From Clostridia bacterium (GTDB lineage: Bacteria; Bacillota; Clostridia; Christensenellales; QALW01): a DNA stretch of 35,980 nucleotides. The notes below the pieces were generated by a model. That model made no database searches. It saw nothing but the letters and a program-made list of their open reading frames with translations, and was not told the origin of the DNA. The position numbers were made by a program, and so were the translations under genes. The stretch's first letter is position 1; each line of letters starts with the position of its first letter. Location: the NCBI GenBank assembly GCA_017516345.1, contig JAFXDC010000015.1:1-35980 (forward strand). The letters are read 5' to 3'. Positions 35,184 through 35,980 of this stretch are shown one piece after another.

Positions 35184-35360
35184 TAACCGCGTTGTTCAAT
35201 TTTGGTTGTTTTTGTAAACGATTGGTTTAACATTGTGCCCAAAAAATTATCGCACATTCAAATCCAAAAGATCGGGAAAAAGGTGAGATGGCGGAAGAAA
35301 GGGTATTTTACCCCAAAAAACATGAAAAGCCCTTGAAAATCAATGACTTGTAGCTATTTA

Positions 35361-35535
35361 GTGAAATATTCGGCAATGCCGAATGTGAAATAATTTTCTT
35401 GCGAAAATTGTGAAATATCTCACTTCGTTCGATGTGAAATGAAATAAATCCCCTCACGCGCCGCAGCGCATTTCACACGCGAAGCGTATTTCACGCACGA
35501 AGTGCATTTCACAAATCCCGCAAGGGATTTATTTC
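35361..35535. repeat. Modular hairpin array punctuated by GTGAAAT / ATTTCAC
   Basis: Four GTGAAAT boxes (35361, 35385, 35410, 35434) alternate with hairpins (ATTCGGC-aat-GCCGAAT; AATTTTC-ttgc-GAAAATT; a third imperfect one). These are followed by three inverse ATTTCAC boxes (35470, 35488, 35506) separated by ACGCGAAGCGT and GCACGAAGTGC. The ATTTCAC half is bracketed by GAAATAAATCCC (35441-35452) and its complement GGGATTTATTTC (35524-35535). It contains no coding sequence. Upstream, 35184-35360 holds nothing that I can name. Confidence 0.88.
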
Positions 35536-35540
35536 GTTGA

Positions 35541-35570
35541 AAAAAGCACTTGCTTTCGCAAGTGCTTTTT
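35541..35570. terminator. Symmetric terminator-like hairpin in the repeat region
   Basis: AAAAAGCACTTGC-tttc-GCAAGTGCTTTTT, perfectly paired with a run of A before and of T after, so it can terminate transcription in both directions. It separates the hairpin array from the tRNA-derived repeat. Confidence 0.75.
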
Positions 35571-35572
35571 TC

Positions 35573-35723
35573 TGGCTCCCCGTGCTGGGCTCGAACCGCT
35601 TGCGCTTGCGGTGCCCGAAAGCTTTTGCGGCTTTGCCTTAAGCTTTCGACCGCTGCGACATTCTCGCCTCGCTTATTCCTGCACTGCAGGCGCGTGAAGC
35701 GACAATGCAGTTAACAGCTTCGG
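35573..35723 (-). repeat. tRNA-derived repeat element, copy 1
   Basis: The minus-strand 3' end (35573-35597) is the T-loop, 3' T-stem half, acceptor strand and CCA of a tRNA: GGTTCGAGCCCAGC, then ACGGGGAG, then CCA. It fits tRNA-Asn best, from memory. The 5' half of the tRNA is absent: the bases before GGTTCGAG cannot pair to make a T-stem. The rest contains CGAAAGCTT / AAGCTTTCG inverted repeats and, at 35651-35723, the element shared with 33852-33923. Positions 35573-35674 recur unchanged at 35879-35980. Confidence 0.8.
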
Positions 35724-35731
35724 ATGTAAAA

Positions 35732-35879
35732 CAAAAAGAGCAAGGCAAAGCCTTGCAAAAACTTATTACCTCTTACTTCTTACCTATTACTTCCCAAAGC
35801 CCCAAGGACTTTTCGAGGTAAGAGTGAAGAGGTAAGAAGTAAAAAGTAAGCCCCAAGAACTTATCGTCCTTGGGGCTTT
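35732..35879. repeat. Large inverted repeat between the two tRNA-derived copies
   Basis: GCAAGGC-aaa-GCCTTGC forms a hairpin (about 35740-35756). AAAGCCCCAAGGAC (35797-35810) is complementary to GTCCTTGGGGCTTT (35866-35879). The enclosed and flanking parts contain short iterations of TTACCTCTTACTTC on one side and GAGGTAAGAAGTA on the other, which also pair. It is non-coding. Confidence 0.75.
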
Positions 35880-35980
35880 GGCTCCCCGTGCTGGGCTCGA
35901 ACCGCTTGCGCTTGCGGTGCCCGAAAGCTTTTGCGGCTTTGCCTTAAGCTTTCGACCGCTGCGACATTCTCGCCTCGCTT
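35879..35980 (-). repeat. tRNA-derived repeat element, copy 2 (cut by window end)
   Basis: 102 bases identical to 35573-35674, including the tRNA 3' end (35879-35903 on the minus strand). It lies in direct orientation 306 bp from copy 1 and runs off the window, so its full length is unknown. Confidence 0.82.

Follow-up and report, generated by a model that had tools for sequence, protein, structure and literature searches.

The bipartite hairpin array and its neighbours

The window, that is, the whole stretch of 35,980 nucleotides analysed here (contig JAFXDC010000015.1 of Clostridia bacterium assembly GCA_017516345.1), ends in a bipartite hairpin array at 35361-35538 that reads 5' to 3' on the minus strand (Table 1). 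Four GTGAAAT boxes on the plus strand are followed by three inverted boxes and a degenerate eighth, the orientation of the box switching halfway, and the spacers between the boxes are perfect or near-perfect hairpins, each of a different sequence. A sequence-only reading of this DNA had described such fixed boxes, differing hairpins and a flip at the midpoint; all were located, and the array end that it gave, 35535, was right. Seven copies of one 7-mer per 180 bases were equalled or exceeded in 4 of 5,000 dinucleotide shuffles, in which hairpins were not required, and the array folds with z = -9.2, the same value with RNA and with DNA parameters. Tandem GA/GA mismatches, as in hairpin 5 (35417-35433), are frequent in the first hairpin past the midpoint (also in L221) and are conserved across box types.

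Immediately 5' of the array lie a tRNA 3'-like end and a terminator hairpin, H0, which adjoins the array and accompanies many of its copies. ARAGORN calls no full tRNA at 35573-35604. The second element in the window is of the same type as the heptamer tract upstream of a PF05635 gene in L229. It is bracketed by identical 102-nt direct repeats (35573-35674 and 35879-35980) that start with the tRNA 3'-end-like sequence, and the contig end falls inside the second copy.

Table 1. Coordinates of the array and adjoining features in the window.
Feature	Coordinates	Strand	Basis
Whole bipartite hairpin array	35361..35538	-	
Box GTGAAAT (box' on minus strand)	35361..35367	+	
Hairpin 7	35368..35384	none assigned	
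Box GTGAAAT	35385..35391	+	
Hairpin 6	35392..35409	none assigned	
Box GTGAAAT	35410..35416	+	
Hairpin 5, stem broken by tandem GA/GA (ATC GA AC GAA GT GA GAT)	35417..35433	-	reading of sequence
Box GTGAAAT	35434..35440	+	
Far copy of arm (GGGATTTATTTC on minus), complementary to box 1 + arm	35441..35452	-	
Hairpin 4	35458..35469	none assigned	
Inverted box	35470..35476	-	
Hairpin 3	35477..35487	none assigned	
Inverted box	35488..35494	-	
Hairpin 2	35495..35505	none assigned	
Inverted box	35506..35512	-	
Arm hairpin AAATCCC ttgc GGGATTT; 3' arm recurs at 35446-35452	35513..35530	-	
Degenerate first box CGAAAT (ATTTCG on +); kept in relatives as (A)ACGAAAT	35531..35536	-	
H0, terminator-like hairpin GAAAAAAGCACTTGCGAAAGCAAGTGCTTTTTTC	35539..35572	-	
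tRNA 3'-end-like sequence GGTTCGAGCCCAGCACGGGGAGCCA, directly 5' of H0	35573..35604	-	
Second element, hairpin-free class: inverted heptamer tract (CTTACTT/CTTACCT/CTTCACT ...), best lag 7	35727..35878	-	

A dispersed family with exchangeable modules

There are four full GTGAAAT elements in the host genome (G000; 1.6 Mb, 70% complete) and dozens in its relatives, and elements are common in ruminant-gut Clostridia genomes. The copies on contigs C13, C18 and C47 of G000 are nearly identical and their flanks differ. Elements L180 and L186 share 98.9% identity over 368 bp in unrelated flanks, with neither a target-site duplication nor IS-like terminal repeats visible at their boundaries. Elements with the GTGAAAT/ATTTCAC box form class A, from which non-clostridial matches to the GTGAAAT pattern (Flavobacterium and others) were left out. 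Weak matches in the host genome to Gut-1, the Rfam family discussed below, are built to the same plan, with one other box used at all sites (TGATGT, GATGATAT or GCGATAT), and relatives add the box sets GTGAAGT and GTGATAT. At least six different boxes occur in the one architecture, with 0 matches in shuffled controls.

Read on the Gut-1 strand, the first half consists of H0, an AACG-box, the arm hairpin and then box plus hairpin three times, and the second half of the far arm copy followed by inverted boxes alternating with three hairpins. This 4+4 layout is constant. Across 63 elements with 18 box/arm combinations, the near arm and its two partner copies co-vary, and the far copy lies 60-63 nt from the near arm in the middle half of cases. 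The identity of the far copy suggests that one and the same 5' arm could pair in two alternative ways. Hairpins also change place: ATGGCTTCGCCAT occurs four times at position 2 and three times at position 3, ACGCTTCGCGT two and three times, and AGCTCCGCT is likewise found at both positions in different elements. Ambiguous orientation of symmetrical elements accounts for some of the remaining position changes in the hairpin table.

The modular, dispersed non-coding family of gut Clostridia with swapped hairpins that the sequence-only reading had proposed is thus borne out, and the array is multi-copy. Its fixed box holds within an element; across the family the box set changes from element to element. 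The family, for which it knew no name, already has one for one half, Gut-1, an entry annotated as RNA rather than as repeat or IS end. A search for an associated transposase, which it had suggested, found none in the host genome (70% complete), and the associated gene belongs to PF05635.

Three further observations concern the surroundings of the copies. A 3' module, GAGTTCGAATTC...AAAAATATCTTTTTTG, follows directly after the last box in L010, L173, L176, L086, L144 and L158; it is common to elements with different boxes and resembles a degenerate tRNA T-arm with a weak terminator. An array of 72% identity is present in a phage record from human faeces that has no annotation (MT835590.1, 14814-14980; H38), which suggests a possible route of transfer. 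At positions 1-100 of contig C47 of the host genome (L003), the element is adjoined by a second dispersed-looking repeat, GGCTCCCTTGTGTAAAGGGAGC...CAATCCCTC, which we take to be one that occurs in gut Clostridia.

Gut-1 covers one half of the element

The minus-strand half at 35465-35539 matches Gut-1 (RF01706) as the 5' half with 68.1 bits, against a gathering score of 50 (cmscan). The other half (35336..35421, plus strand) gives a weak match of 37.9 bits, below the gathering score and in the opposite orientation. Gut-1 was reported from the human gut only and classed as a probable non-coding RNA (Weinberg et al. 2010, PMC2864571), and Rfam files it as an RNA of unknown function. A structured, trans-acting RNA made from the minus strand would account for the Gut-1 match, the strong folding and that classification, and the position near a tRNA would supply its transcription. 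The Gut-1 model, however, spans one half of an element that is symmetrical and inverted; the matches of the other half, on the opposite strand, are weaker, and details of the hairpins also speak against such an RNA.

On the Gut-1 strand, the loops in the 5' half are C(TNC)G or C(TNNC)G (56:0) and those in the 3' half C(GNA)G or C(GNNA)G (55:1), a dependence of loop type on half and box orientation with Fisher p = 3e-31. Since the loop type flips with the orientation of the box, the hairpin-plus-box unit is directional and flips as a block. The tetraloops are GNNA with an unrestricted third base (about 26 R and about 25 Y), unlike the GNRA loops of RNA. C-G-closed GNA and GNNA loops are extra-stable DNA loops; the ViennaRNA DNA parameters do not distinguish triloops and give -4.7 for GNNA tetraloops versus -4.3 for TNNC. 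The stems covary, and 4 G.T and 7 A.C among about 960 pairs amount to no G.U excess, although the events are too few for a strong verdict on strand. The loop and wobble data favour a DNA-level element, with which transcription is compatible. Box sets that change as a whole between elements and tandem versions without hairpins also argue against the trans-acting RNA, which we consider unlikely. Near-identical copies at unrelated loci, together with the change of box set and the loop flip, favour a dispersed, modular element that acts at the DNA level.

Elements sit behind tRNA genes and inside terminators

Class A elements start 34-48 nt past a tRNA gene in 16 of the 49 with enough upstream sequence, the tRNAs being Ser, Thr, Pro, Asn, Ala, Trp, Leu and others, and at L204 the tmRNA gene has an element outside class A behind it. 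The window array, behind its tRNA 3'-like end and terminator, has the stable-RNA hairpin siting of the IVS-type elements (intervening sequences of rRNA). Other copies lie inside a terminator, so that their flanks are its two arms, for example L178, L185, L186, L191, L221, L077 and L129; in L191 the left flank is AAAAGCACcTATGGATA and the right flank TATCCATAaGTGCTTTT. In an automatic comparison of flank complementarity over all elements, 4 of 47 reached the 99th percentile, a result diluted by the tRNA-type copies. When the comparison was redone on dispersed units, 7 of 17 scored higher than 99% of 258 mispaired flanks, and 10 failed. In the convincing cases the right terminator arm begins at +334 to +390. 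For the window locus, a search for an empty site by way of the downstream XRE gene found no true orthologue in relatives, the matches covering the HTH region only.

PF05635 genes accompany the arrays

The gene right downstream of several arrays encodes a PF05635 protein (23S_rRNA_IVP, IVP/S23), a relative of PDB 2RLD. Only about 5-8 class A elements have such a gene downstream; none adjoins the window copy, and the host genome, which is 70% complete, yielded no class A IVP. In an order-level sample of 27 regions upstream of PF05635 genes, a tRNA is present in 14, compared with 7 of 364 control ORFs (p = 1e-13), at a distance of 213-286 nt in 13 of the 14. Words repeated at least five times occur upstream of 17/27 PF05635 genes versus 29/363 controls, a conservative comparison because the control loci are themselves array-rich. 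Hairpin-free arrays, in which heptamer tracts are followed by inverted heptamers, were found at L228, L229, L234 and L244. The linkage of arrays to PF05635 is well supported.

The heptamer period extends beyond the host. Autocorrelation of the 180 nt upstream of the gene is best at lag 7 in 25 of 30 PF05635 loci from across the phylum, as compared with 2 of 30 in the far-upstream control, and inverted heptamer copies often lie downstream of the gene. PF05635 loci inside 23S rRNA were recognised by reading at L272, L278, L283 and L284, the last also by Rfam. At L281 (G110:C1, about 403844-404161), the RNase P RNA gene harbours a PF05635 gene with heptamers, and the RF00010 alignment there is 775 nt long for a model of 367 positions. 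Plasmid PF05635 genes with heptamers in Nostoc, Euhalothece, Planktothrix, Treponema and Bernardetia add three more phyla (cyanobacterial, spirochaete and Bacteroidota). In Coxiella, the 23S rRNA IVS has three tandem heptamers ahead of the start of S23p, a protein family of unknown function (PMC4990558). The best period upstream of PF05635 is 11, not 7, at L277 and L280 (for example AACGATAGTTA units), and the repeat period is 8 at L257/L259. Judged from these sequences, repeat-unit length seems to differ between IVP lineages. An open-access literature search on Gut-1 repeats, on IVP with tRNA and on heptamers with IVP returned as relevant PMC2864571, PMC10053308 and PMC4990558 only.

Box class follows IVP phylogeny

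We built a tree of 29 IVPs, each labelled with the class of box found in its own array; the classes were set by eye before the tree was made, some were lumped, and class A includes near-copies. The tree requires 9 changes for 10 box classes, which is the minimum, while shuffled labels required a mean of 19.7 and 0 of 200 shuffles were as low. Every box class is thus compatible with a single origin on the IVP tree. Box classes cross bacterial families, and a single genome, that of the host, holds unrelated classes; box and IVP therefore travel together. This co-sorting would fit an IVP that recognises its own heptamer. Established here are the dispersed modular architecture, the hairpin-site context, the PF05635 linkage, the heptamer periodicity and the co-sorting of IVP and box.

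Neutral debris, formed at terminators by slippage and palindrome correction with neither mobility nor a protein function, would explain the variable repeat numbers and the perfect stems with hardly any wobble pairs, which fit template-switch correction. It would not lead one to expect the constant 4+4 layout, the 60-63 nt arm spacing, flanks that are halves of a split terminator or co-sorting with IVP phylogeny across bacterial families, and we regard it as improbable. Arrays often lie just upstream of a promoter and IVP genes close behind arrays, as would be expected if the array were a regulatory leader, an attenuator or operator of the downstream gene, IVP autoregulation included. The promoter (TTGAAA..TATAAT) lies after the array, however, which places the array outside the leader; the downstream genes are otherwise unrelated, and near-identical copies stand at unrelated genes. 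We consider a leader unlikely. A REP/BIME-like element moved by a transposase of the RAYT or IS200 type (Y1), or a MITE derived from a conventional IS, is very improbable despite the resemblance to BIMEs, in which hairpins scattered between genes share a conserved foot sequence and are combined as inverted pairs. L180/L186 have no IS-like terminal repeats or target duplications, and the search that detects Y1_Tnp (PF01797) in five control genomes found none in the host genome (70% complete).

A proposed mechanism

We conclude that the window array is probably a gene-less, hairpin-interrupted relative of IVS-type mobile elements, in which the box is the recognition unit of a cognate IVP. The window copy, which has no IVP gene, is best seen as non-autonomous or decayed. 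We infer that the IVP binds the box and drives movement in trans, and that movement passes through a single-stranded DNA stage. Inverted repeats of a unit of 7 bases, or in some cases 8, would define the superfamily. In most lineages tandem units would enclose a PF05635 (four-helix-bundle) gene; in the clostridial branch perfect mini-hairpins would part the units, with the gene, if any, just downstream. Each IVP lineage would recognise its own heptamer. In single-stranded DNA or a cruciform, the mini-hairpins would fold out, so that the heptamers come to lie side by side in tandem, and IVP bound to the heptamers may help to place elements in hairpins. Placement would be at the hairpins of stable RNAs, namely tRNA, tmRNA and intergenic terminators and, for gene-bearing members, 23S rRNA and RNase P RNA, where it would do little harm. 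We know of no catalytic activity of PF05635, and another enzyme would therefore have to cut and join.

A wider proposal, which we offer tentatively as a possible generalisation, is that PF05635 proteins are box-specific mobilisers of cross-phylum inverted-heptamer elements that target stable-RNA hairpins. The 23S rRNA IVSs, the cyanobacterial heptanucleotide repeats and Gut-1 would be members, and the mini-hairpins a clostridial elaboration. For decades no function has been known for the rRNA IVSs or for the S23/IVP protein (PMC4990558). The co-sorting of box and IVP makes a sequence-specific interaction between IVP and heptamer directly testable, and with it a function for the protein family. 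If the proposal is true, what Rfam lists as an RNA family would belong to a mobile DNA element, and IVS, Gut-1 and probably STRR would be joined in one class with a distinctive target, terminators and the hairpins of stable-RNA genes.

Comparison with known systems

On the best reading, the Gut-1 half was known and the whole is new, a hairpin-interrupted variant of IVS-type elements. The array resembles Gut-1 (RF01706) in its minus-strand half, which scores over the gathering score, and differs in that the model describes one half and one box type, whereas the array family is bipartite and inverted with many box types. REP/BIME sequences with RAYT share intergenic hairpins, inverted combination and a conserved foot with the array, which differs in its 7-base box repeated eight times, its siting at terminator hairpins and a host genome with no Y1 transposase. 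The accessory protein Avd of diversity-generating retroelements (DGRs) is a structural homologue of PF05635 (PMC10053308). Retromobility of DGR type, with a reverse transcriptase in cis, was set aside, no reverse transcriptase (PF00078) having been found in the host genome (70% complete) or its closest relative (G004).

The 23S rRNA IVS with S23p/IVP of Coxiella (PMC4990558) resembles the array family in its inverted stem, heptamers, stable-RNA hairpin site and PF05635 protein. The window copy has the inverted heptamers of such IVS/S23p elements. It differs in encoding no PF05635 protein, in lying after a tRNA-like end and terminator instead of in 23S rRNA, and in having hairpins between its heptamers. 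The cyanobacterial STRR heptanucleotide repeats are reportedly tandem heptamers in rnpB and in tRNA-Leu intron hairpins. They resemble the array family in their heptamer repeats, and the IVP genes of Nostoc plasmids are flanked by heptamers; the link between STRR and IVP is a putative one, drawn from these plasmid loci. STRRs lack hairpins between units, whereas the tandem of the window array is interrupted by them. The second window element has tandem heptamers, as STRRs do.
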